Below, one piece after another: positions 24,373 through 36,660 of a stretch of 37,936 nt of DNA (its first letter is position 1; each line of letters starts with the position of its first letter). Under the pieces are notes generated by a model. The model was not told where the DNA came from and ran no database searches. It saw only the letters and a program-made list of their open reading frames with translations. The position numbers and the translations under genes are program-made. Source of the stretch: Bryobacterales bacterium (GTDB taxonomy: Bacteria > Acidobacteriota > Terriglobia > Bryobacterales > Bryobacteraceae); the NCBI GenBank assembly GCA_947467395.1, contig CANIIC010000018.1, positions 1 to 37,936 on the forward strand, read 5' to 3'.

Positions 24373-25302
24373 ATGGCGGACGCAGTCATCAACTTGGACG
24401 GACTGACGGTTCGCCTGGGCAAGCGAGAAATTCTGCACGGCCTCAAAGGCGAACTCACCGGCCGTACCATCGGACTACTGGGACCCAACGGAGCAGGGAA
24501 GTCGACCCTCATCCAAACCCTGCTCGGCTTCTGCCCGCCCACCTCCGGCACCGCCTCCATCTTCGGCGAAGATATCCGTAGCCAGGCCCGCAAGCTGCGC
24601 GGAGTCATCGGCTACATGCCGGAAAACGATTCCTTCATCGCCGACATGACGGCGGTCGGCTTCGTCAAACTGATGGGAGAGCTGAGCGGCCTTCCCGCCG
24701 AAGCTGCCCTCGAGCGAGCCCACGAAGTCCTGTTCTACGTCGGCCTCGGCGAGGCCCGCTATCGACCCCTGGGTACCTACTCGCTCGGCATGAAACAACT
24801 CGCCAAGCTCGCCCAGGCCATTGTGCACGGGCCGCGGCTCGTGATCCTCGATGAGCCCACCAACGGTCTCGACCCGCCGGCCCGCGCTCGCATGATCAAG
24901 CTCATCAAAGAAATGCGCGACACCGGCAAGATGCACCTGGTCGTCTGCTCGCACTTGCTCCGCGACGTCGAAGAGACCTGTGAGGAAGTGCTAATCCTCA
25001 AAGCCGGCCGCATCGTCCACTATTCGAACCTCGAAGAAGAACGCAAGGCGAACCAGCGCTTCGTCGAAATCGAGATGCTGGGAAATGAAGCAGGCTTTGC
25101 CGAAGCGCTGGCCCAGCGCGGCTGCGAGTGCACGCCCGCCGGACAGGGTCGCCTGAAGATGGTGGTCCCGCCCGAATTTGAACTGCGCGAGATCTACGTC
25201 CTCGCCGCCGAACGCGACCTGCAACTCCGCCGCCTCAACTATCGCCGCGATACGCTCGAAGACATTTTCCTGAAAGCGATGGCCACCGATGGCAGTCTAT
25301 AA
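24373..25302 (+). CDS. ABC transporter ATP-binding protein (first of pair)
   Basis: 309 residues. Walker A GPNGAGKS (37-44), a signature reading YSLGMK (136-141, a variant of LSGGQ usual in ABC-2 exporters), Walker [13 protein letters not shown] (about 156-167) and a His-containing switch CSHLL. The C-terminal 90 residues form an extra regulatory-type domain ([17 protein letters not shown]...), seen in ATPases of the ABC-2/NatA class. It energises export by the permease that follows, whose start overlaps its end by 14 bases. Confidence 0.92.
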
Positions 25303-26149
25303 GCGCACTTACACCGGCTACGATGGGCCGCTCACCCCTGAGTGGTCGCGCTTCCTGATCCTTCCGCGCGCCAACTACCGGCAGCTGGGCCAGTCCAAGC
25401 TGCTCACCATCCTGCGCATGGCGGCGATGTTCTACCCGCTCGGCTGCATCGTGTGGGTCTACTTGGCCAACAATCTCTCCGTGCTGTCCACTGTGGGCTT
25501 CGATGTCGGCCAATACATCAAGGTGGATACCTCGTTGTTCCTCTACTTCTGCTGGGTGCAGGGCGCTTTCGCCTACATCATGACCGCTCTGGTCGGCCCC
25601 TCCTTGGTTTCGCCCGACCTGGTCAACAACGCCCTCCCGCTCTACTTCGCGCGACCCTTTTCGCGCACCGAATACGTCCTCGGCAAGCTCAGCGTGCTCG
25701 GGATCCTGCTCTCCACCATCACCTGGATTCCCGGCTTAGTGGTCTGGATCATCCAAGCCTCGCTCGGCGGCTGGGACTGGACCGTGGCTAATCTGTGGGT
25801 CGCGGGATCCCTGTTCCTCGGCATGACGCTGTGGGTCCTGTTGCTCAGCCTCATCGCTCTCGCCGTCTCGGCATGGGTGAAGTGGCGGATCGCTGCAGGC
25901 GCGCTACTGCTCGGGATCTTCGTCGCCGGCGCGGGCTTCGGCACGGCCATCAATCAAATCGTGCGTACCGATTACGGATCGCTGGTGAACCTGCCCGAAG
26001 TGATGTTCACGCTGTGGTCGCAATTGTTCGGCCTGGAATCGACCACCGGTCTGCCCGCCGAATATGCCTGGGCCACCTATGTGACTGTGTGTGCCGGCTG
26101 CTTGTGGCTGCTGTGGCGCAAGGTTCGCGCCTTTGAGGTGGTGAAGTAA
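25289..26149 (+). CDS. ABC-2 type transporter permease
   Basis: 286 residues, about six transmembrane helices (for example [20 protein letters not shown] marks the loop after helix 2, and the run [20 protein letters not shown] is helix 3). The cytoplasmic start [19 protein letters not shown] has the short amphipathic lead-in seen in ABC-2 permeases. The sequence [20 protein letters not shown], between helices, is the typical coupling region to the ATPase. It overlaps the first ATPase gene by 14 bases and its TAA overlaps the second ATPase ATG. Substrate unknown. Confidence 0.88.
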
Positions 26150-27087
26150 TGAGCGGCGCCATCACCTTCGACAACGTCTCCCGCTTCTACGGCGACGTGC
26201 TGGGCGTCAATCGCGTCACGCTCTCCATCCCGCCCGGCATCACCAGCCTGGTCGGACCGAACGGCTCCGGCAAGACGACCCTCATGAACCTCATGACCGG
26301 TCTGGTCCGTCCCACGCGTGGCTCCATCGACGTGCTGGGAGTCAGCCCGCAGGATCCCGAGCGTTTGTTCAAAATCGTCGGCTACTCCACGCAATTCGAT
26401 TCCTACCCGCGCGGTATGACCGGCTTCCAGTTCATCCAGTCCTACCTGCGATTGTTCGGCATGTCCGCCAACGACGCGGCCGCAGCCGCGATGCGCGTCA
26501 TCGAACGCGTCAACCTCGCCGAAGCCGCCAATCGCAAGATCGCTGGCTACAGCAAGGGCATGCGCCAGCGTATTCGTCTTGCACAAGCCATCGCCCATGA
26601 TCCCCGCGTGCTGGTACTCGACGAACCACTGAACGGCCTCGATCCCTTGGTGCGCTCGGAAACTATCGCTCTTTTCCGCGCCTGGGCCGCCGAAGGCCGC
26701 CACGTCATCGTGTCGAGCCATGTCCTCCACGAAGTCGACTCCATCTCCGATCAAGTCATCCTGCTCGCCAACGGCTACGTCGTCGCCGAAGGCCAGATCC
26801 GTGGTGTCCGCGACGAAATGCGCGAACACCCCATGCAGGTCGTGCTTCGCTGCACCCGAGCCAACGAAATGGCCGCTCGTGTCTTCGGTGCCGACCACGT
26901 CGTCGAAGCCCGCCTCCACGCCGACGGCGGCGGCTTGTTGATCAAGACCCGCGACGCCGACAAGTTCTACACCATGCTGAACCACATCGCCCTCGACGGT
27001 TTCGTGATCGAAAGCGTGGCTCCCGCGGATGACAACGTGAATTCACTCTATGAGTACCTGATTGGCGGAGAGGAGCCAACTCGATGA
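26149..27087 (+). CDS. ABC transporter ATP-binding protein (second of pair)
   Basis: 312 residues. Walker [10 protein letters not shown] (36-44), Q-loop Gln in [11 protein letters not shown] (Q82), signature YSKGMRQ (134-140), Walker [13 protein letters not shown] (154-165) and switch His in SSHVLHE. Its C-terminal extension resembles that of the first ATPase in length only; the two ATPases are clearly diverged, so they may form a heterodimer or each serve its own permease. Starts on the TAA of the preceding permease gene (TAATG) and overlaps the next by four bases. Confidence 0.92.
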
Positions 27088-28136
27088 TCGGCATGTGGCT
27101 CTCACCAATTGGCTCTGTCGTGCGCCTGGAGATGAAGAAGACCTTCTTCTCGAAGCGCGGCCTATGGGTGTACCTGGTCGCACTCGCTCCCGTCGCGGTG
27201 ATGTTCCTGCACTCCATGGTCAGCCTCGCCAATGGCGAAGAACGCCGCGCCCTTGCCGCAGCACACCCTACCTCCGCCGCCGCACTGCAGTCCATCATGC
27301 CCGGCATGACCGTCGACGAAGTGCTGGAGCGCGCCGGCGAGCCGTTCGATCGTGTCGACCTCGGCCGCCGTGGAGTCTTCCGCTACACCGACGGCCGCGA
27401 CGCTTACAACGTAAACTTCTTCAACAACCAAGTGGCCCGAGTCACCACGCGTACACGCGATACCATCGCCTACGACTCCACCATCTTCGCCACCGTCTTC
27501 CAGTTCTTCTACCTGCGCCTGGCCATCTTCTTCGGCTGCGTAGGCGTCTTCACGAACCTGTTCCGCGGCGAACTGCTCGACAAGAGCCTGCACTACTATC
27601 TGCTCACGCCCCTCCGTCGCGAGGTGCTGGTCATTGGCAAGTACATCGCAGGACTGACCGCCACCACCGTCATCTTCTGTACAGGAACAGTGCTACAGAT
27701 CTGGGCCCTCTCCCTGCACTTTGAAAAGAGTGAAATCGCGGACTTCCTGAACGCTGATGGTTGGAGCCACATCGCCGCCTATGTCGGTGTCACCGCTGCG
27801 GCTTGCCTCGGCTACGGGAGCGTATTTCTGGCCGCCGGACTGTTGTTCAAGAACCCGATCATTCCGGCCGCTTCTGTTGAAGTGTGGGAGAGCCTGAACA
27901 TCTTCCTCCCTGCCACACTCAAGAAGGTCAGCGTCATCTACTACCTGCAATCGCTCTGCCCCATCGTCGCCCAACCGGACGAGAACATGAACCGCTTCCT
28001 CAAACTGATGATCAACGCCGCCGAACCCGTCTCGGCCCCCGTCGCGATCATCGGGTTGTTCGTCGTCACCGGGCTGGTGCTGTTATTGTCAGGCCGCCTC
28101 GCGCGACGCTTGGAAATCAACTACAGCACCGACTAG
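27084..28136 (+). CDS. ABC-2 type permease with BamE/SmpA-like insertion
   Basis: 350 residues. Helix 1 is about 27-49 ([20 protein letters not shown]); helix 2 begins near 133. The loop between them, which should face the periplasm, is about 85 residues and holds a compact motif set: [20 protein letters not shown] (70-89), [22 protein letters not shown] (about 99-120). This is the PGMT..EV....G.P / Y.Y.....Y.V.F.N..V..V pattern of BamE/SmpA (OmlA)-fold domains. Helices 2-6 and a C-terminal end [13 protein letters not shown] follow the ABC-2 pattern. An added BamE-like domain in a permease is unusual and may contact an outer-membrane or periplasmic partner. It ends two bases before the convergent 5'-nucleotidase. 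Confidence 0.82.
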
Positions 28137-28138
28137 GG

Positions 28139-29659
28139 CTATTTGCGGTCGACGCGATTCTCGATCTTGGCCCGCAGCGGTGAATGGGCTGCGATGTAGT
28201 CGATGAACGCATCGCTGTCGATCATTCCCGTATCGTAGCGGTAGCCCTTCGCGCTTTTGAGTGTCTCCACGCCATCGCCGCCGCCCGCGACAAAGTTGTT
28301 GGTCGTGATCCGGTATGTCGCGTTGCGATCCACCGGTTTACCAGCGATCATCAGCTCCGTGACGCGACGCCCTGCCGGTTGTGTCGGATCTAACGCGTAG
28401 CTACTGCCAGCCGAAATCCAGAGCACGCGGAAACGCGACGCTTCCACGATATCTTCCAGCGCCTGTTGCAGCTGAGCACCGCTGACATCCATCACCACCA
28501 GCGTGTTGTTGAACGGCTGCACCGAAAGCGCCGCCCCATACGTGATGTCGCCCGGCTCAAGCGCCGCGCGTACCCCTCCGATGTTCATGAGCGCGGCTAC
28601 CGCACCCTGCTTGGCCGTTGCTGCCAGCATCGCATCGGCGATCAGTTCGCCCATTGCCGCGTTCTGCGGAATGGCCTCCGCCGCCGAACCTACCTTGCGA
28701 TCGCGCTGCTGCAGCAACGGCTTCTGGAACGCTTCCACCAGCGTATGCAGCGTCGCATCCTCCGCCACCGTTTCATCCACCATCACCGGCTGCGTCGTGC
28801 TCCACCGCGTCACGCGACCCTGCTCGTCGAACGTCACCTGCACCCGTCCCAATACCTTCTCGCCTTCCCACGACTGCACCACGATCGTCTTGCCCTGGTC
28901 CGGATTGTCGACCACCGTCGGATACGGCCCGCGTGCATCCGGCCACCCCGGCGCCGTCGTGGTCCCCAGCAACGTATGGCTGTGTCCGCCGACGATCACA
29001 TCCACGTTGTGCAGCGTGCGCGCCAACTGCTGCTCTTCTTCGTAGCCGATATGCGTCAGCAACACGATTTTGTTGATGCCCTGACGCGTCAGCGCGTCGA
29101 TCTCGGATTGCAGCGACGCGTTCAGCTCCCGCAGACGCACATTCGGCCCCGGACTGCTGATGGTCGGAAGCGTATCGGTAATACCTCCAACGATGCCGAT
29201 GCGCTCGGTGCCTCGCGTCACAATCACGGAACCACGGATTCTGCTCTGCAACGCAGGCTCCGCACTCACGTCCAGATTCGCCGAGACCAACGGGAACTGA
29301 GCGTTGCGCGCGAACGCTCCAAGCGTCGCAGGACCTTTGTCGAACTCATGATTGCCCACCGCCATCGCATCCAGATGCAGTGCGTTCAGGAACGCCACAT
29401 CCGCCAGACCTTCGTACACGTTGAAGTAGAACGTTCCTTGAAACGCATCGCCCGCATGCAGCACGATTGGGTTCGGATCGGTCTCACGATACCGGTTGAT
29501 TAGCGTCGCCAGCCGAGGCATGCCGCCATACGGCTTGCCTTGGATCACCGTGGGCTCGATGCGGTCGTGCGTATCGTTGACGTGCAGGAAGGTAGCCGTG
29601 AAGTCGGCAGGGAAAGCCGCGGCCGATAGGAATAGCAGCAGCAAGAATCGCAGGCGCAT
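28139..29659 (-). CDS. Exported 5'-nucleotidase/2',3'-cyclic phosphodiesterase family protein
   Basis: 506 residues from the ATG at 29659; this start opens a signal peptide (MRLRFLLLLFLSAAAFPA), while the in-frame ATG at 29674 overlaps the -10 box. The calcineurin-like metallophosphatase domain shows NDTHD (28-32), AGD (69-71), GNHEFDKG (102-109), LLTHIGYEE and GGHSHTLLG, the two-metal site. The C-terminal 5'-nucleotidase domain contains NNFVAGGGDGVETL, which binds the base. It hydrolyses nucleotides or cyclic nucleotides in the periplasm for salvage. The end of the gene almost touches the convergent ABC permease gene. Confidence 0.93.
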   Translation of the reverse strand: MRLRFLLLLFLSAAAFPADFTATFLHVNDTHDRIEPTVIQGKPYGGMPRLATLINRYRETDPNPIVLHAGDAFQGTFYFNVYEGLADVAFLNALHLDAMAVGNHEFDKGPATLGAFARNAQFPLVSANLDVSAEPALQSRIRGSVIVTRGTERIGIVGGITDTLPTISSPGPNVRLRELNASLQSEIDALTRQGINKIVLLTHIGYEEEQQLARTLHNVDVIVGGHSHTLLGTTTAPGWPDARGPYPTVVDNPDQGKTIVVQSWEGEKVLGRVQVTFDEQGRVTRWSTTQPVMVDETVAEDATLHTLVEAFQKPLLQQRDRKVGSAAEAIPQNAAMGELIADAMLAATAKQGAVAALMNIGGVRAALEPGDITYGAALSVQPFNNTLVVMDVSGAQLQQALEDIVEASRFRVLWISAGSSYALDPTQPAGRRVTELMIAGKPVDRNATYRITTNNFVAGGGDGVETLKSAKGYRYDTGMIDSDAFIDYIAAHSPLRAKIENRVDRK

Positions 29660-29665
29660 GTCGCG

Positions 29666-29671
29666 AGTATA
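29666..29671 (-). promoter_or_regulatory. -10 element six bases before the 5'-nucleotidase start
   Basis: TATACT reads on the minus strand at 29671-29666, ending exactly six bases before the ATG at 29659. Transcription would begin at about the ATG, and there is no ribosome site, so the mRNA is probably leaderless. No clear -35 is present. Confidence 0.5.
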
Positions 29672-29719
29672 CATGCGCCGCGTGAGGTTCTGATGAAAGC
29701 TCCGAGCGGCCGCCCGGAA

Positions 29720-30181
29720 CTACTTGATCATGTACTTATCGTGGCAGCCGGAGCAGGAGTTCAAAATCTTCTCCGCCACGTCGCCACTCATCAGGTCCAG
29801 ATCCTTCTTGTCGATCGCCTTGATCGCCAGATCGCCAGCGGCATGCAGATCCTTGGCCGCCGCATTCCAGCCCGCCGGATTCGCGGCACCGGCCTTGCCC
29901 GCTTTGCCCTTGGTCGCGCCGCCCTTAGCTTGACCCGTAGCCATGCGGCCCGGCGTGGCGAGAAGGTCGGCCGACTCAATCAAGAGCTGTGCTTGCTTCC
30001 GGGCCGCGGCCCAATCTGCAGCCGACAGCTTCTCTTTCGATCCCGCATCGAACAACGCGTTCGATGCAGGGATGCTCATCTTGAGCATGATCTCTTTGGT
30101 GGTGGCGGTTTTCGTGTCGGCGACCTGGGCTACCAGAATCGAACCGGCGAGGAGTGTGAACGATCCAATGACGAGACGCAT
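29720..30181 (-). CDS. Cytochrome c'-like (class II) periplasmic cytochrome
   Basis: 153 residues from the ATG at 30181, which opens a signal peptide (MRLVIGSFTLLAGSILVAQV). The single heme site CSGCH (143-147) lies close to the C-terminus, the hallmark of class II cytochromes (c' and c-556), together with a helix-rich body. A Met pair near residues 32-35 could supply the sixth ligand as in c-556. An Ala/Gly/Lys-rich insertion (about 80-103, GQAKGGATKGKAGKAGAANP) is unusual. It may bind NO or carry electrons. It precedes the DUF6644-like genes of the next cluster on the same strand, separated by 81 bases. Confidence 0.8.
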   Translation of the reverse strand: MRLVIGSFTLLAGSILVAQVADTKTATTKEIMLKMSIPASNALFDAGSKEKLSAADWAAARKQAQLLIESADLLATPGRMATGQAKGGATKGKAGKAGAANPAGWNAAAKDLHAAGDLAIKAIDKKDLDLMSGDVAEKILNSCSGCHDKYMIK

Positions 30182-30187
30182 GGAACT

Positions 30188-30193
30188 ATTATG
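30188..30193 (-). promoter_or_regulatory. -10 element six bases before the cytochrome start
   Basis: CATAAT reads on the minus strand at 30193-30188, again exactly six bases before the ATG at 30181, with no ribosome site between. The same spacing as in the 5'-nucleotidase promoter suggests a leaderless transcript and gives this gene its own promoter. Confidence 0.5.
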
Positions 30194-30262
30194 AGCAAGT
30201 CGAGTGCCGCAAAACAGCCCCAACTTAGGCTACTTTCGCGCCCTATCGCGCAGGACTGAGCC

Positions 30263-30769
30263 TTAGAACGCAGTGCCGATGAACGGCAACATGCGGCCCC
30301 AGTACATCACACCGAACCACATGATCAGCGAAGTCGCCGCCACGATCTTGGCCGACAGCGGAGCATCCGCCCCCGGACCCAGTTCTTCGATGCGATGCGA
30401 CAGCCCCGTCGCGTAGAAGTACAGCACGTTCAGTCCGGCGAGCCCGACAAACAGCATCTTGAATTGGAACGCGATGTTGTGGCTGTACTGCATGGCATCC
30501 GCCGCGTAGAACATAATGCCCGTCACCAGATTCATCGCGAAGCCCAGGATGCCCCACGGCACCAGACGATGCAGCGGACGCAAGGGGATCTGCTTGGCGA
30601 CGCCCAGCATGCGCAAATCCAACACGCCGATCGCGCCCACCATCAACGCCAGGCCCAGGAAGTGAATCGTCTCGCAGCCGGCCCACAGCCATTGGTTGTC
30701 CTTCATGACGAAGGACAGTTCCGTGGTCTGAATCCACCGTGCGAATGGATCAATAAAGCTCGTATCCAT
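30263..30769 (-). CDS. DUF6644-like four-helix membrane protein, copy A
   Basis: 168 residues, about four transmembrane helices. The first long helix reads TIHFLGLALMVGAIGVLDLR and has a buried His; another holds NIAFQFKMLFVGLAG; the last has YWGRMLPFIG. It is a paralogue of the next gene: GLAL.VG....DLR.LG, KM.F....L..NV and W.G....GR....IG align between them. Hydrophobic four-helix proteins with a conserved His may bind heme, but no heme site is proven. Starts 4 bases after the stop of copy B. The family name is from memory. Confidence 0.75.
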   Translation of the reverse strand: MDTSFIDPFARWIQTTELSFVMKDNQWLWAGCETIHFLGLALMVGAIGVLDLRMLGVAKQIPLRPLHRLVPWGILGFAMNLVTGIMFYAADAMQYSHNIAFQFKMLFVGLAGLNVLYFYATGLSHRIEELGPGADAPLSAKIVAATSLIMWFGVMYWGRMLPFIGTAF

Positions 30770-30772
30770 GAC

Positions 30773-31240
30773 TTACTCCAGTCCCGCCACCGGCCCGATG
30801 TACGCCATCAGCCGGCCCGCCGTGGTCGCGCCGATCCACAGGAAGATCGAAATCCACGCCAGAGCAGGGGATTCAATGCCCGCCCGCAGTTTCCTCTGCG
30901 CAATCCGTACGTTCCACACCGCCAGGAAGATGAAGATCATCTTCACGTAGAACACCGGGTTGATCATCTTCGTCGTGGCGTCGGCCATCAACAGGATCAC
31001 GCCCGAAATTGCGTTCACCCAGAAACCGACCCACATGATCGGGAAGTAACGTTCGTACGGCCCGATCGCAGCCTCTTTACCGAAGCCCAGCAGACGAAGG
31101 TCCACCGCGAAGCTGATGCCCACCAGCAGCGCCAGGCCGATCGTGTGCATCGTCAAAATGAATGCGTACCCCATCACCGAGCCAGACTCGCGGACCCACG
31201 TGCTGAAGGACAGCTGCTCTACCCATTGGAGAAATTCCAT
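30773..31240 (-). CDS. DUF6644-like four-helix membrane protein, copy B
   Basis: 155 residues from the ATG at 31240 (a TTG seven codons upstream, directly after the previous stop, is the alternative). Four helices; the first long one reads TMHTIGLALLVGISFAVDLR and keeps the same buried His as copy A. Copy A's extra His residues (in RPLHRL and YSHNIAF) are absent here, so the two have diverged and could pair as a heterodimer. It follows the 288-residue exported protein by about 20 bases and is in the same transcription unit. Confidence 0.75.
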   Translation of the reverse strand: MEFLQWVEQLSFSTWVRESGSVMGYAFILTMHTIGLALLVGISFAVDLRLLGFGKEAAIGPYERYFPIMWVGFWVNAISGVILLMADATTKMINPVFYVKMIFIFLAVWNVRIAQRKLRAGIESPALAWISIFLWIGATTAGRLMAYIGPVAGLE

Positions 31241-31261
31241 GTGTGCGGAAACCCTGAGCAA

Positions 31262-32128
31262 TTACCGTGCCGAGCAGGCGGACGGCTTGAACTTAGAGTT
31301 GTTCGGCTCTTTCTTAAAGTGCGTGGACGTGCGGAACGGCTGCGTCAGGTTCGCCGGATCCTCAACCACTGTCGTGATCACCAGATACTGCGTCCCATCC
31401 GGTTCGTGCAGAATGTCGAAGAACTCGCTCAGCTGCGTGTTGGCGCTATACGGAACACCGTTCTTCCGCAGGTAGCCGCCGCTCAGGCTGCTGGTCAGCA
31501 CCTTCAGTGAACCCGGACGAATCGGCTGCGCCGCTCCCGGACCACCCGCGGCATTCGCGTCGCCCGTAGCACCCGCGGGCACCCCGAACGTCCCACGTCC
31601 GCGCGCCGGAATCCCGTCCCAGGAAGCCTTGGAGAAACCTTGCAGAGAAGGCGCGCCCGTCGCATCGCCCGTGAAGTGCAACAACCGCGTCTGTGTACCG
31701 GCATCCGCCTGGATGCGCAGTGTGTTGTCGTCCGCCCAATCGATCTGCAGACGCCCCGGCAACCGCATCAACCCCGCCGCGCCGTAGGCGAGACAGGTCT
31801 GGCCCGCCGCTTCGTCCTTGGCCGGATCCCAGTTATTCGCCGCCGTCCGAGCCGCCGGAGTTACCGGAACACTCGACACATCGCCCTTCGCCGGCGTCAC
31901 CATCCGATACAGCCAGTCCTCGGTCACCAGCGAAACCCATGTACCCGTCAGATCGATCGGAGCCTGCGCCTTCGGCGTCGGAGGTGCAGCCGGTCCCTTC
32001 GGAGCGCCGCCCTTCGCCGCGCCCCCCTTGGCAGCACCGCCGCCAGCTGGGGCCTGCGCCAGAACCAGAGAAACGGCCAATGCGAATGCACCCGCCAGCG
32101 TCAATACGTTGCGCCCAATGCGATACAT
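31262..32128 (-). CDS. Exported protein of unknown function with DLTGTW motif
   Basis: 288 residues; AAGGAGAGG lies about 9 bases before the ATG. Signal peptide residues 1-25, then an Ala/Gly/Lys/Pro low-complexity segment (about 26-55, built on GGAAKGGA repeats). The folded part begins IDLTGTWVSLVTEDWLYRMV and includes a GLMRLPGRLQIDWADDNTLRIQADAG stretch with a short, lipocalin-like look; two cysteines (TCLAYG, and one near the end, PSACSAR). Proteins of this type recur in bacteria next to DUF6152 and DUF6644 genes, and the same N-terminal DLTG words occur in the first gene of this cluster (33684-34532). Function unknown. Confidence 0.7.
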   Translation of the reverse strand: MYRIGRNVLTLAGAFALAVSLVLAQAPAGGGAAKGGAAKGGAPKGPAAPPTPKAQAPIDLTGTWVSLVTEDWLYRMVTPAKGDVSSVPVTPAARTAANNWDPAKDEAAGQTCLAYGAAGLMRLPGRLQIDWADDNTLRIQADAGTQTRLLHFTGDATGAPSLQGFSKASWDGIPARGRGTFGVPAGATGDANAAGGPGAAQPIRPGSLKVLTSSLSGGYLRKNGVPYSANTQLSEFFDILHEPDGTQYLVITTVVEDPANLTQPFRTSTHFKKEPNNSKFKPSACSAR

Positions 32129-32201
32129 GTGGGAATTCCTCTCCTTGTCGAAGCCGCGATCCGTGGCGCCTCGACGCTGTACAGCCTGATTCTGTGCCGC
32201 T

Positions 32202-32612
32202 CTAGTTAAACGTCTGGTTGCCTACCGGCCACGTCCAGCCGTCCGACGGACGCGTGATGGAACGCATGCGCAAGCGGTAGTCTTCCGGATTGCGGCCAGG
32301 GCTGCCGACCACGGTCACCTTGTCGCCCACCTTCAGCGTGCCCGTACGGACACCCTGCTGGGCCAACTGTCCCGCTGCGCCCCATTCGATGGACCAGCGC
32401 ACCGGCTTGCCGTCCTTGTCCTTCAGCTTCGCGTCTTCCACATGCACGAACGAGTGCGGATTGCGGACCAAGAATGCCTTCAGCTCGCCCTCAATCTTCA
32501 TCGGGGGAGCATCTTCCAGGTAGGTGCCGGCGAACGAATGGTGCGCCGAAACCGGCGTCACGCCCGTCATCAGGCCGAAGCCCACCGCCAGAAGTGCAAG
32601 TTTTAATTTCAT
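32202..32612 (-). CDS. DUF6152-like exported protein
   Basis: 136 residues; GGGAGG lies about 8 bases before the ATG. Signal peptide residues 1-23 (cut before HHSF). Mature start AHHSFAGTYLEDAPPMKIEG, then VRNPHSFVHVEDAKLKDKDG and VRWSIEWGAAGQL: the DUF6152 pattern (HHSFA, N-PH, W-EWG). It is a small beta-barrel-like periplasmic protein whose paired N-terminal His could hold a metal after signal cleavage. Function unknown. Family call from memory. Confidence 0.8.
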   Translation of the reverse strand: MKLKLALLAVGFGLMTGVTPVSAHHSFAGTYLEDAPPMKIEGELKAFLVRNPHSFVHVEDAKLKDKDGKPVRWSIEWGAAGQLAQQGVRTGTLKVGDKVTVVGSPGRNPEDYRLRMRSITRPSDGWTWPVGNQTFN

Positions 32613-32688
32613 CGAGAACCTCCCAAAGTCATGCTAACACCGCAGATCCCGGATTCCCGGTATCCGGCGGTCAACTCCCGGTCAGTGA

Positions 32689-33684
32689 CTACTTCCCGCC
32701 CAAACTCTTGTACACCGCTTCAATGAACATGTCCGTCGTCCACGCACCCGTGGTCGAACCCCACCGGGCATCATATTCATAAGTCGGCTTGGCCGCCTTG
32801 ATCTGCGCTAGCGTCTGCCCCTTCTTGATGCCGTCCTGGATGCGATCTCGAATGATGGTCACCATATCGCGGTATTCCAGAACATCGTGCTCATCGGTCA
32901 AACGCCCACGCCCGGGGATCACATACGTGCCCCCTTCCTGCTCATGCCGCGGCACGCAAATATCCAGAATCAGGTTCAACGCCTTCAATACACCCTGAAC
33001 GTTGCCGCCCTTGGCGATATCGATCTTCGGGAAGGACGTCATGTCGAACACGTCCCCCGCGGCGATCACATCGGACCGCCGGAAGAAGACCACGCTATCG
33101 CCATCGGTGTGCGCCTCCGGCTGGAACATGATCAGCACGGGCTCTTCATTGAAGAAGATCTCTTTCTGACCTTCGTTGAACGTCGTCGTCGGCAGGGCAT
33201 CGGCGTTCGGCACTTTCTGGCCTTCCGGGACGTTGCTCATGCGATACAACACGTTCTCGTGCGAGACGATCGTCGCGCCGTTTTCAAACGCCACCGCGCC
33301 CAGATTGCCGCCCGTCACCGGAGCGCCCGCGCGCGAAATCGCCGCGTTCGTCGCCGTATGATCGATGCTGGTATTCACCACGTAGCGAATCGGCTTGTCC
33401 GACAGCTTGCGGATCTCGGCGATCACCGCATCGCTCAAGCCCTCGGCCGGGGTATCCACCACGAACGCGCCCCAATCCCCGACGCTGACCGCGACATTGC
33501 CGGTAGGCGTCCAGATCATGTAAACGTTGCCTTGAACCTTCTGCACGCCGATCTGCGGCGCGGCGGCTTTCGCCTGCTTGCCCTTCTGCTGACCGAAGGC
33601 TTTCGGAGCCGGGCCGAAAGCCAGGAACGCGGCCGATGCGGCCAGAGCCGTGGCCAAGGGGAGGGTCTTCCAAGTTTTCGTCAT
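32689..33684 (-). CDS. Exported metallo-beta-lactamase-fold protein with degenerate metal site
   Basis: 331 residues. Signal peptide about 1-31. From residue 48 the MBL fold is clear: VYMIWTPTGNVAVSVGDWGAFVVDT, then the position of HxHxDH reads NTSIDHTATN (104-113), so both first histidines are gone and only DH (108-109) remains. AHTDGD (191-196) and GDVF (210-213) are kept, but the last ligand is R258 in VIPGRGRLTDE, where relatives have VIPGHG. Only part of a metal site survives. The CGT codon for R258 differs from a His codon by one base, so a sequencing error should be excluded. Its ATG overlaps the previous stop (TAATG). Confidence 0.85.
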   Translation of the reverse strand: MTKTWKTLPLATALAASAAFLAFGPAPKAFGQQKGKQAKAAAPQIGVQKVQGNVYMIWTPTGNVAVSVGDWGAFVVDTPAEGLSDAVIAEIRKLSDKPIRYVVNTSIDHTATNAAISRAGAPVTGGNLGAVAFENGATIVSHENVLYRMSNVPEGQKVPNADALPTTTFNEGQKEIFFNEEPVLIMFQPEAHTDGDSVVFFRRSDVIAAGDVFDMTSFPKIDIAKGGNVQGVLKALNLILDICVPRHEQEGGTYVIPGRGRLTDEHDVLEYRDMVTIIRDRIQDGIKKGQTLAQIKAAKPTYEYDARWGSTTGAWTTDMFIEAVYKSLGGK

Positions 33685-34532
33685 TACTTGCGAGCCGCCT
33701 TGATCTTTTCCATGTATTCGGGGTACATCGTTTCCGGTCCGCCTAAAACAGCATCCAGCGGCAGGTTGTACTTCGTGCGGAATTCATCCAGGAACGGATT
33801 CGTTCCCGGCAGGTAGGAGGGAACCTTGGTGCGATCCGAACCCGGCAGTTCGTTCACGTATTCGCACGGCCAAAGCCAGTTGCCGTTGGGATTGGTGCCC
33901 TTCACATAATCTTCACTCTTGATCAGCGGCTCGGCCAGATACACCGGATCGGTCACCACGCTGATGTGCGTCAACTGATCGCCATGCAGAATGAAGTGGT
34001 CGATCAGGTCAATCTTGTCGCTCGACGGAATGCCGTTGCGCCGATGCCAGCCCTGCTTGATATGCGTGGTGTGCACCGTGAGAATATTGCCGTCCCACTT
34101 GCCGGTCGAGAATCCCATCCAAGTATGCGGCGCCCATTCCGGTGGATGCGAGCGGCCATCCATCCAGATGGTCCGGTTCTGTTCGTAGGTGCTGGTGTAC
34201 TGCCGCAGCGCGACAATGTTCTGCGTCTGCGGATCGCGTTCTTCCCAGATGCGCAGCTGCAGCGGACCACGATAAATGTAGGCTGCCGTATGCACCTGGC
34301 ACTGATGTTCCTGCAAGCCCAGCCGGTCCGGTGCCCACGACAACGCCCACTTGCGCGCGAAGTCATTAATCGGGATGCCGCCGAAGTCGATCAATTCCGG
34401 TCCCGGGATGCGTTCCGGTTGATCTTCGAGATATTGCGGGTTCCACACGCCGGTCAAATCGACCTGAGCGCTAGCGGGAAGCAACGTAATTGCTGCCATC
34501 GCCAACAGGGTCGACCACCGCGAAAACTTCAT
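33684..34532 (-). CDS. Exported protein of unknown function, first gene of periplasmic cluster
   Basis: 282 residues from the ATG at 34532, which opens a signal peptide (MKFSRWSTLLAMAAITLLPA, cut before QVDLTG). AGGAGG lies 13 bases upstream; a GTG three codons earlier is closer to it and is the alternative start. The mature body starts VDLTGVWNPQYLEDQPERIP and contains RIWEERDPQTQNIVALRQYT and RTIWMDGRSHPPEWAPHTWMG, the latter typical of a family of secreted acidobacterial proteins that I cannot name. Two cysteines (HQCQVH, WPCEYV). It is rich in Trp and His and shares the DLTG start of another cluster member. Confidence 0.7.
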   Translation of the reverse strand: MKFSRWSTLLAMAAITLLPASAQVDLTGVWNPQYLEDQPERIPGPELIDFGGIPINDFARKWALSWAPDRLGLQEHQCQVHTAAYIYRGPLQLRIWEERDPQTQNIVALRQYTSTYEQNRTIWMDGRSHPPEWAPHTWMGFSTGKWDGNILTVHTTHIKQGWHRRNGIPSSDKIDLIDHFILHGDQLTHISVVTDPVYLAEPLIKSEDYVKGTNPNGNWLWPCEYVNELPGSDRTKVPSYLPGTNPFLDEFRTKYNLPLDAVLGGPETMYPEYMEKIKAARK

Positions 34533-34551
34533 GGGACGCACACTACCTCCT

Positions 34552-34617
34552 ATTGCAGTAACAGGCTGCAATCTGTAAAGTCGAAACACGGTAACATTTG
34601 GTTACGCAGCGCGTCAA
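34552..34617 (-). promoter_or_regulatory. Promoter and operator-like dyads of the periplasmic cluster
   Basis: Minus strand: TTGACG (34617-34612) and TACCGT (34593-34588) with 18 bases between form a plausible sigma-70 promoter. A palindrome GTAAC-N5-GTTAC (34591-34605) fills most of the spacer and touches the -10, as expected of a repressor site. A second dyad, ATTGCAG-N7-CTGCAAT (34552-34572), lies just before the AGGAGG of the first gene and could form an mRNA hairpin or be another operator. The regulator gene ends at 34640, directly upstream. Confidence 0.45.
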
Positions 34618-34639
34618 GGCCGCGCTTGTTTCAATCTAT

Positions 34640-35908
34640 TCAGCAGGCTACCGGCGAATTCGTGGCCGCGATTTTCTGCCGAATCGCCTCAAAACGAGGA
34701 TGCCCGCGGAAGTTGTCGAACTTCGGATCCACATTCAGCAACGCCAGCATCGGACAGCCCTGCTCAAAGGCGCTTTCCAACTCTGTCATCGCATCCTCCA
34801 CGCGTCCCAATGCATGCTTCAGGAGCGCCGTGTGGTAGCCGTCTACATACGTTGATTGCCGCACCCGCTCAATATCTGCCAGCGCGGATTCTGCTTCCGC
34901 CCGATACCCGGTCTTCGCCAGACACGCTCCTTCTAGCGCCCGATTCCAGCCCACATCCGGCGATAGCAGACACACGCGTCGGTACAACTCCAGAGCCTCT
35001 TCATTCCGCCCCAGCCGCTCCAGTGCCGCCGCGTAGAACGAAGTCGCCGTCGGGAAGTAGGGATGCAGGTCCAGAACCTGCTTGCCATAATCCACCGCCG
35101 CCTCGAAATTCCTGCTGCAGAACCGCACCAGGATTTCCGCTAGAGCCACGTTGCTCAACAACGCATCCACTGCGCGGCCCTGCTGAATCGTCTGCTCGGC
35201 TTCCTCGTACCGCTCCCACGAGACATACAACATGGCCAGATAAACGTAGGCCACCGCCAACCGGGGCTGTTCCGCAATCGCCGCCTGCAGGAATTTCTCT
35301 GACTCGGGATAATTCCGCTCGAATAGGTGCAGCCCCAGTCCGCGATCCGCTCGCAATTCCGCAGTGTATCCCCGCAATTCCACCACCCGGTTGTGCGCCT
35401 CCAGGAACCGCGGATACGCCTGCTCCGGCGACCGCATGGAGAACGATCCCATCTGCAACAACACCCGCGAGATGCCTTCCAGCGCACGGCCTTCGGCGCC
35501 GGTCTCAAGCGCGGCCCGCTCGAAACATACCAGCGCTTTCTCCAACCCCTCGCGCGTCTGCCGATTTACATGGTGCCAGCCGATTCGCAGCAGTTGTTCG
35601 GATTCCGGAATCTCCAGGCTGTACCCCAGCCTCGGATGGCACGTGATCCACGCCCCATATTCCCCCAGTGCCCGCTTCACTTCGGCGATCGTGACCGTCA
35701 CGGTGTGCTTCGAAACCGAGACCCCGCCCCACGCCTGCTGGATCATATGCTCATGATCCACATGCAGCCCGCTGTGGGTGACCAGTGCTTTTAGCGCCCG
35801 CAACGCCTGTGGCCGTAACGAGAGATATTCGCCTTCCCGCTGCAACGACTCGGACGTCAGGTCGAGCGTGAAGGGGCCGAACGTAATGACTTGAGAGGCC
35901 GGTGACAT
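34640..35908 (-). CDS. Winged-helix DNA-binding protein with TPR domain (CadC-like)
   Basis: 422 residues from the ATG at 35908, which starts at the domain edge; an ATG 19 codons earlier is possible. Residues 1-95 are an OmpR/ToxR-type winged helix: VITFGPFTLDLTSESLQREG, LRPQALRALKALV and VSKHTVTVTIAEVKRALGE. The rest is a run of TPR helices (e.g. AYVYLAMLYVSWERYEEAEQ, YAAALERLGRNEEALELY). No transmembrane segment, so unlike CadC it is cytoplasmic. No phosphorylation domain is visible; ligand or protein binding by the TPR part would set its activity. It lies just upstream of the periplasmic cluster and may control it. Confidence 0.85.
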   Translation of the reverse strand: MSPASQVITFGPFTLDLTSESLQREGEYLSLRPQALRALKALVTHSGLHVDHEHMIQQAWGGVSVSKHTVTVTIAEVKRALGEYGAWITCHPRLGYSLEIPESEQLLRIGWHHVNRQTREGLEKALVCFERAALETGAEGRALEGISRVLLQMGSFSMRSPEQAYPRFLEAHNRVVELRGYTAELRADRGLGLHLFERNYPESEKFLQAAIAEQPRLAVAYVYLAMLYVSWERYEEAEQTIQQGRAVDALLSNVALAEILVRFCSRNFEAAVDYGKQVLDLHPYFPTATSFYAAALERLGRNEEALELYRRVCLLSPDVGWNRALEGACLAKTGYRAEAESALADIERVRQSTYVDGYHTALLKHALGRVEDAMTELESAFEQGCPMLALLNVDPKFDNFRGHPRFEAIRQKIAATNSPVAC

Positions 35909-35981
35909 GTGGAAGAACGCCAAGTCATCATACAACAACCCCCGAACGGCCACTATGCAGCCCAATTGACACCTTCAATCA

Positions 35982-36001
35982 CCAGATTTGATCCAGATTT
36001 G
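35982..36001. repeat. Direct repeat upstream of the regulator gene
   Basis: CCAGATTTG occurs at 35982-35990 and 35993-36001, an 11-base spacing that puts both on one face of the helix (about one turn). It lies 74 bases before the regulator's start. ToxR/OmpR-type winged helices bind such direct repeats, so autoregulation is plausible. Confidence 0.4.
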
Positions 36002-36105
36002 ACTTCTGTTTTTCATAGGCCCCGCTAGAATCAAGTTGTCCGATTGCGGCAGCCTCCTCTCCAGGGTGTCCCATTAGGGAGCCGCAACAGGGTCCATCGC
36101 AGCGC

Positions 36106-36660
36106 CTAGCCCCCCACCAACCTGGGCGCTGCGGAAGATTCGCAACCCCTCCCGGCAGCACGCACCCCCCGCGCGCTGCCGGGAAGCGAATCCCCCAAAA
36201 ACCGGAACAGACATTCCGCATTTCCCCACATCTTCCCGCCGAAGTATTCGGAATACCCCGTCGACACCGCCCGCAGGTTCGACCCGCTCGCGCTCAGGTT
36301 GTACGCCACCAGCTTCGCCCCACCCGCCGAGTAGTACGTCAGCTCATCCACCGTCGTCGAGCCTCGCCACACCCGCTTGTTGCCGGGAGCGTAGGAGTAG
36401 CGGATCGTGTCCCCAGAAATCGGAGCCGCCACAATCCGGTTCGCCACGTCGTAAGTGTAGGTGCTACCGCACGGGGAGATGTTGCCGTTGGCATCCGCGC
36501 AATCCGTCGTGCGCCGGTTAGTCGAGGCGCTGTAGGACACGCTCAGTGTCGGAGCCGTGCCCTCGATGACGTTCACGTTCGTGAGGTTGCCGAAGGGGGA
36601 GCGTGTCAGTGCTTGAGTGTGCTGTCCCGAGTTTCCAATAGCTACTTCGGTGCTCCACCC
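36106..36660 (-). pseudogene. Truncated RHS/YD-repeat fragment
   Basis: Minus-strand frame open from 36660 (a stop codon lies directly upstream) to 36106, with no usable start except GTG codons. RHS-type content: GNSGQHTQALTRSPFGNLTN, YTYDVANRIVAA, YAPGNKRVWRG, VDELTYYSAGGAKLVAYNL, and STGYSEYFGGKMW, the last just before the RHS core would normally continue. After about 36235 the frame turns into Gly/Arg/Ala-rich sequence unrelated to RHS, next to a strong hairpin. Both ends are therefore broken: it is a remnant of an RHS gene, which in intact form makes a secreted or contact-dependent toxin shell. Its left end lies in the final codons of the 92-residue membrane protein. Confidence 0.75.
36151..36183. 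repeat. Strong GC-rich hairpin at the RHS breakpoint
   Basis: CCCGGCAGC-A-CGC (36151-36163), loop ACCCCCC, and GCG-C-GCTGCCGGG (36171-36183): 12 of 13 positions pair. No T tract follows on either strand. It lies within the region where RHS similarity has ended and could be a terminator stem or a repeat or recombination hairpin. Confidence 0.5.

Follow-up and report, generated by a model that had tools for sequence, protein, structure and literature searches.

A stretch of 37,936 nucleotides from a Bryobacterales bacterium (contig CANIIC010000018.1; hereafter the window) carries at 30263-34532 six minus-strand open reading frames (ORFs), encoding in order DLTG1, a metallo-beta-lactamase-fold protein (MBL), a DUF6152 protein, DLTG2, and the membrane proteins MEMa and MEMb. 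A preliminary description of the sequence had presented them as six consecutive genes joined by a TAATG overlap at 33684 and short gaps, and every ORF was found in its place. The gaps from DLTG1 to MEMb are -1, 76, 73, 21, and 3 nucleotides (nt), the first being the one-base DLTG1/MBL overlap in TAATG. A hydropathy scan gave a signal-peptide-like or membrane segment in all six products, including the five previously credited with one; only that count has to be raised. The genes are:

33684-34532, minus strand: DLTG1, exported DLTG-superfamily protein of 282 amino acids (aa), assigned as an ORF and by homology to DLTG2
32689-33684, minus strand: MBL, exported metallo-beta-lactamase-fold protein with H116/H118 replaced (NTSIDH) and PGRG instead of PGHG
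32202-32612, minus strand: DUF6152, exported protein with a predicted oligonucleotide/oligosaccharide-binding (OB) fold, a predicted mature N terminus HHSF, and NPH 27 residues on
31262-32128, minus strand: DLTG2, exported DLTG-superfamily protein without the C-terminal part of DLTG1
30773-31240, minus strand: MEMa, polytopic, DUF6644-like protein with an ATG start (TTG at 31261 also open)
30263-30769, minus strand: MEMb, DUF6644 polytopic membrane protein of 168 aa

DUF6152 and MEMb are members of their Pfam families, as described earlier, scoring 69.3 bits against PF19649 and 35.6 bits against DUF6644 (PF20349), with a gathering cut-off of 27 in both cases. MEMa has no Pfam match at E ≤ 0.1 and is called DUF6644-like rather than a member, because its match to DUF6644 is reached only at E ≤ 1, a level at which all 31 rows compared, MEMa among them, match; of the two DUF6644-like paralogs described, one is thus above the cut-off. 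DLTG1 and DLTG2, noted before as two secreted proteins starting with DLTG, are indeed homologous (29% identity, with an invariant Cys in common), and both have a hydrophobic N terminus. Neither matched a Pfam or NCBIfam family, and DLTG1 also had no match in the Protein Data Bank (PDB). An in-frame GTG at 34541, after GGAGG, is an alternative start of DLTG1 and may be the true one.

The six-gene block and the repeated DUF6152-DLTG pair

We traced the block by following its genes through relatives and through 80 loci that a DLTG1 profile retrieved. The order DLTG1-MBL-DUF6152-DLTG2, followed by at least two DUF6644-type genes, occurs in nine genomes, the window's and eight relatives, and its retention in eight other genomes is more than chance would give. 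The carriers besides the window, by genome and locus, are:

G001 (L031, L051), G014 (L032), G018 (L033, L053), and G013 (L034, L054)
G007 (L035, L058), G004 (L036, L056), L052, and L055

G014 has the two DUF6644-type genes arranged as in the window, and six loci (L052-L056, L058) have them swapped; in L057, from another species, the contig end cuts the block after MBL. The block's DUF6152 gene in G004 is present in the L036 reading and was missed by the gene caller in L056. There are four DUF6644-type genes in G001, and their second pair is the more similar to that of the window (71 and 76% identity). The flanks of the block vary among most relatives compared, L033 and L034 having common flanks. 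In L052-L056 and L058, the MEMb-type protein beside DLTG2 is ~303-320 aa long, has about double the number of membrane segments seen in the 168-aa protein of the window, and may be a doubled or extended form.

The six-gene block is under purifying selection. Comparison with L031 and L032, the nearest relatives, gave a ratio of nonsynonymous to synonymous substitution rates (dN/dS) of 0.03-0.13 for five computable genes, including 0.06-0.07 for MBL; dS was not computable for DLTG2 in these comparisons, and dS values are close to saturation. Against the more distant L033, the ratio ranges over 0.09-0.28, MEMa, MEMb, and DLTG2 having the highest values.

Beyond the block, adjacency of DUF6152 and DLTG genes is recurrent, and the six-gene cluster represents a single edition of a cassette present in many copies per genome. 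Forty random windows drawn from the window's genus contain seven DUF6152 genes, six of which are no more than 45 nt away from a DLTG gene; DLTG genes (called at ≥20 bits) make up 15 of the 562 genes there. In 20 loci for which DUF6152 was the sole criterion of choice, a DLTG gene is the direct neighbor, within 300 nt, of 21 of the 24 DUF6152 genes. A DLTG neighbor was likewise found at 27 of 30 DUF6152 loci in six other genomes (Proteobacteria, Acidimicrobiia, and Vicinamibacteria), which were selected for holding DLTG1, their DUF6152 loci not being so selected; in two of the three misses, the profile called no DUF6152 ORF. The neighborhood survey proposed in the preliminary description thus found the families linked elsewhere, and the unlinked outcome was not found.

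The proposed co-occurrence analysis gave identical distributions. Among 31 genomes (the window's own and relatives), DUF6152, DUF6644, and DLTG profile matches each occur in 28, and the same three (G019, G021, G026) lack all of them. The window's own 4.07 Mb genome holds 36 DUF6152, 13 DUF6644, and at least 75 DLTG matches; per-genome DLTG counts come from the best 80 candidates each, and large counts are lower bounds. A broader DLTG profile gave 92 stretches in this genome, some of them two pieces of one gene. Copy numbers of the three families correlate across genomes (rho 0.94, 0.86, and 0.84), although these are not independent points because the genomes are related. DUF6152 is present in 36-73 copies in nine of the 31 genomes. 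Inside one genus group, G005, G009, G012, and G015-G017 have 1-4 copies and G001, G004, G007, G013, and G018 have 50-73, which suggests quick expansion or loss.

DUF6152 as a candidate metal protein

The mature DUF6152 protein was modeled as an OB fold with a predicted local distance difference test (pLDDT) score of 87, and the best structural matches of the model are OB-fold proteins (Z ~9; Foldseek, VIA-align). A PDB profile match to the adhesin 6xi3 (E 7e-9) was discarded as the sum of four weak repeats. Among 101 distinct DUF6152 proteins gathered at ≥40 bits from the loci collected, 100 contain HH and then NPH at a spacing of 25-27 residues, the lone exception having THH and SPH, and 99 have a small-x-small, cleavage-like motif directly before the HH. 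In 19 aligned rows, H1, H2, N28, P29, and H30 are invariant.

A copper histidine brace is defined by an N-terminal histidine and a second histidine (PMC10952591). By motif, export and a histidine at the mature N terminus are predicted for 99 of the 101 proteins. From these sequence features, DUF6152 proteins would have an N-terminal-histidine metal site, probably for copper, other metals or a structural role being possible. No open-license paper was found that combines a histidine brace with an OB fold or that names DUF6152 or DUF6644.

MBL, membrane, and DLTG partners

The window MBL scores 17.7 bits against Lactamase_B, below the cut-off of 22.7, and its best NCBIfam matches are TIGR04559 (58.9 bits) and TIGR04558 (38.5 bits), whose cut-offs are 280 and 300. 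The MBL fold named in the preliminary description was confirmed on the predicted model of a fused relative, L097 (pLDDT 86.7; predicted template modeling score 0.88). Its MBL half aligns with chlorothalonil dehalogenase 6uxu (Z 28.8, root-mean-square deviation 2.8, 266 residues aligned) and with a Burkholderia MBL, 8d2z (Z 27.1). DLTG1 and MBL are fused into one ORF 16 times, the fusions being spread over 15 of the 80 DLTG1 loci, which also contain 41 separate MBL ORFs longer than 250 aa. Of the fusions, the one at L079 (7926-9740) has intact ligands and the one at L097 (7953-9743) is ligand-poor.

The zinc ligands, which we take to be the HxHxDH motif (H116, H118) with H196, D221, and H263, are incomplete in the window MBL, where NTSIDH and PGRG are found. 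In a tree of 67 MBL rows built by a quick method (four rows dropped beforehand, ligand columns omitted), a branch with a support of 100 separates the 59 rows of the DLTG1-anchored loci from the others. By a motif rule, 18 of these 59 keep all zinc ligands; the intact-ligand state changes at least 10 times over the tree and the fused state at least nine times. The nine rows from the block form a subclade (support 98), and H116 and H118 are absent in all nine. Judged by these motifs, the DLTG1-linked clade lost zinc ligands several times, and their loss in the window's subclade is shown.

Gene content within 16.8 kb was compared for 21 families between 40 full-length DLTG1 loci (of the 80) and 40 random windows; the controls, taken from six species in the window's genus, were placed away from known strong DLTG1 matches, and the anchors cover a broader range of taxa. 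MBL was enriched around DLTG1 (24 vs. 1, p 7e-9). Because 21 comparisons were made, this is the only enrichment that holds apart from the DLTG profiles, which as the anchors are enriched by design. Enrichment was nominal only for a TonB-type receptor (9 vs. 1, p 0.007), distant DLTG (19 vs. 8, p 0.009), and DUF6644 (7 vs. 1, p 0.03; six of the seven loci are the six-gene block itself), and absent for pyrroloquinoline quinone (PQQ) dehydrogenase (9/40 vs. 6/40). Monooxygenase, tannase, ring-cleavage, and PQQ genes, named by eye, lie near some loci. A context of aromatic or lignin catabolism was dropped because none of its families was enriched against the 40 random windows (VOC 3 vs. 1, tannase 3 vs. 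1, esterase family 4 vs. 0 with p 0.058).

A tandem DUF6644 pair was found in 13 of 15 low-copy genomes, with two such pairs in G016; the non-paired cases are a single match at a contig end (G015) and two matches 2 kb apart (G029). DUF6644 has a DUF6152 gene no more than 8 kb away in 10 of the 15 (seven of the ten belonging to one genus), against a chance expectation of ~0.15 genomes (copies × 16 kb / genome length). Six order relatives (L135-L138, L145, L146) have a cytochrome c'-like gene, a DUF6644 pair, DUF6152, and two DLTG genes together, with other genes intervening in most of them; L135, L138, L145, and L146 also have a PQQ dehydrogenase nearby, and L135, L138, and L146 a second DUF6152. 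Pfam checks covered the L135 PQQ protein and the c'-like genes of L135 and L146 (below the cut-off), L154 (above it), and L141 (no match); the remaining PQQ and c' assignments were made by eye. Multicopper oxidases lie near DUF6644 genes in L147 (9714-11279) and L144 (4817-6334), the former carrying a fused CusF domain, and HupE/UreJ lies near DUF6644 in L148.

H36, G56, and K104 are kept in 31 diverse DUF6644 rows. Of these 31 members, 14 match DUF2214 (best E 4.6e-6) and three match UPF0093 (best E 0.0052). A comparison with HemJ-like proteins gave an hhalign probability of 0.1%, a weak test because it used only three weak sequences, HemJ being over the cut-off in 0 of 60 Acidobacteriota-type genomes with only 5 weak matches. 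As judged by these profiles, DUF6644 shows only weak kinship to membrane families that handle heme or copper.

For the DLTG proteins, 34 superfamily rows from the 20 DUF6152 loci gave no convincing Pfam, NCBIfam, or PDB match. The DLTG half of L097 consists mostly of beta strands in the predicted model, with nearly invariant G28 and W30 forming a GxW at the first strand. Lipocalin-like proteins are antiparallel barrels with GxW in the first strand. The matches listed for a fold search with the whole DLTG1~MBL fusion are all to MBL proteins, the DLTG domain not having been searched alone. In L201, L223, and L125, single ORFs of 493-516 aa carry two tandem DLTG domains.

The two genes described as lying just downstream of the block are both present:

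29720-30181, minus strand: cytochrome c'-like exported protein with CSGCH, not part of the core
28139-29674: 5'-nucleotidase (Pfam 127 bits)

The former scores 22 bits and does not reach the cytochrome c' (PF01322) cut-off of 26.5. Their association with the block is partial: within the flanks fetched, cytochrome c' adjoins it only in the window, G001, and G014, three genomes out of the nine, and the nucleotidase is near it in one of six relatives examined (L032). The regulator gene at 34640-35908 is not counted in the unit because a homolog, itself weak (25% identity), was called in only one of the 80 DLTG1 loci (L082). Upstream of it lies a possible RHS/YD-repeat-like fragment (SYAPGNKRVWRG; 36106-36576, minus strand). 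An ABC-2 type permease at 27084-28136 (plus strand), with a soluble stretch after its first membrane segment, belongs to the second of two consecutive ATPase-permease gene pairs (24373-28136). A scan of the minus strand at 28000-36200 gave no terminator-like or promoter-like site, and it says little because its totals equal the shuffled expectation.

Interpretation and comparison with known systems

We tentatively favor, with somewhat less than even confidence, the reading that the six genes are an operon-like unit for one cell-envelope assembly, a specialized edition of a DUF6152-DLTG metal cassette. Once its signal peptide is removed, DUF6152 would be a small OB-fold protein that coordinates a single metal, most likely copper, through its N-terminal histidine(s) and the histidine of NPH, in a site resembling a histidine brace. 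Its DLTG partners, predicted to be mainly beta, would either bind the substrate or serve as a dock for DUF6152. The MBL domain, no normal zinc hydrolase here, would assist DLTG1 structurally or in substrate binding. At the membrane, metal or electrons would be handled by the DUF6644 pair, in the way that CopD serves CopC; CopC and DUF1775 genes frequently adjoin CopD genes (PMC12362106). The many paralogous cassettes would then serve different small molecules. The preliminary description had proposed one envelope redox or small-molecule-processing system not yet described: the conserved linked unit in nine genomes supports such an undescribed envelope system, whereas its redox chemistry is plausible but unproven.

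Several results weigh against the metal cassette. The 101 DUF6152 proteins were gathered with a profile of 19 motif-bearing members, and the N terminus is poorly placed in the DUF6152 model (residues 1-3 with pLDDT <50), so that the HH/NPH geometry is only putative. Dozens of DUF6152 copies per genome are odd for a copper chaperone. Per window, DUF6152 is not enriched around DLTG1 (10/40 vs. 6/40), an absence attributable to its high background, and because only MBL survives multiple-test correction, no substrate context is established. As for the membrane partner, DUF6644 resembles CopD weakly (2 of 31 members, best E 0.0074; hhalign probability 11% with six sequences), and none of the 20 loci picked by DUF6152 contains a DUF6644 gene.

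We give little credence to a bolder version, in which DUF6152 would be a new OB-fold histidine-brace copper protein forming, with DLTG, a large secreted family of oxidative enzymes for different organic substrates, and the six-gene cluster would be its membrane-linked edition with a recruited degenerate MBL.

Among the alternatives, metal (copper) homeostasis alone survives best, and we consider it possible but on the unlikely side. DUF6152 would then be a periplasmic chaperone like CopC, DUF1775, or CusF, DUF6644 a CopD-like importer, and DLTG and MBL non-catalytic binding accessories. The HH...NPH pattern and OB fold of DUF6152 are consistent with this, CusF also having an OB fold, as is the occurrence of the multicopper oxidases and HupE/UreJ near DUF6644. 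However, such metal genes occur in a few of the DUF6644 loci examined, counted without comparison to controls, and the 36-73 DUF6152 copies in nine genomes fit a diversified substrate-facing role better.

It is quite improbable that the block encodes a zinc-hydrolase system, with MBL as the enzyme, DLTG1 shaping its pocket, the window copy using a shifted metal set or mechanism, and DUF6152 in a structural role. The 18 MBL rows with all ligands, the DLTG1~MBL fusions, and the hydrolytic dehalogenase 6uxu as best structural match of the fused relative point in this direction. The window MBL is under purifying selection, yet its entire subclade lacks H116 and H118; moreover, an MBL-profile match occurs in only one of 20 DUF6152 loci (L213, on the opposite strand), and the conserved HH of DUF6152 would be left unexplained.

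Lower again in probability is heme-based envelope electron transfer, hinted at in the preliminary description, in which DUF6644 would bind heme b through its invariant histidine (and lysine) and relay electrons among quinone, cytochrome c', and a PQQ dehydrogenase. The invariant H36 and K104 argue for it, as do the c'-like gene downstream of the window's block and those adjoining the DUF6644 pair in several order relatives, four of them with a PQQ dehydrogenase; against it stand the lack of PQQ dehydrogenase enrichment around DLTG1, the restriction of cytochrome c' to three of nine blocks, and the low, if weakly tested, HemJ-like probability. A chance neighborhood of unrelated expanded families, some adjacency being expected of families so numerous, is hardly credible given adjacencies of 6/7, 21/24, and 27/30, the DLTG1~MBL fusions, the joint absence of DUF6152, DUF6644, and DLTG from three genomes, and a block kept despite changing flanks.

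If the metal cassette is real, a gene pair much repeated in a 4.07 Mb genome gains a testable role and the histidine brace extends to a new fold. Even without a metal, a DLTG superfamily that lacks a Pfam or NCBIfam model and pairs regularly with DUF6152 is a clear target for study, as is an MBL clade with repeated zinc-ligand loss that is often fused to DLTG1.

The window MBL is closest among NCBIfam models to the SoxH-like quinoprotein-relay zinc metallohydrolases (TIGR04559, TIGR04558), from which it differs in scoring far under their cut-offs, having lost zinc ligands, and being linked to DLTG1 with no enrichment of PQQ dehydrogenases nearby. The structures 6uxu and 8d2z, which align with the L097 MBL half, share ~20% identity with it and cover that half only, and the ligands are lost in the window's subclade.

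Fungal lytic polysaccharide monooxygenases (LPMOs) occur, like DUF6152, in large numbers of paralogs. Histidine-brace LPMOs and X325/DUF6595 resemble DUF6152 in being secreted, with an N-terminal histidine after the signal peptide and a second conserved histidine (PMC10952591). DUF6152, a putative metal protein, differs in its predicted fold and its two N-terminal histidines.

The CopC/CopD and YcnI(DUF1775)/YcnJ systems likewise have a small exported N-terminal-histidine protein encoded near a polytopic membrane protein, and DUF1775 is cupredoxin-like (PMC12362106), whereas DUF6152 has a predicted OB fold. Unlike either system, DUF6152 occurs in dozens of copies in some genomes and has a DLTG partner, and the kinship of DUF6644 with CopD is unproven.

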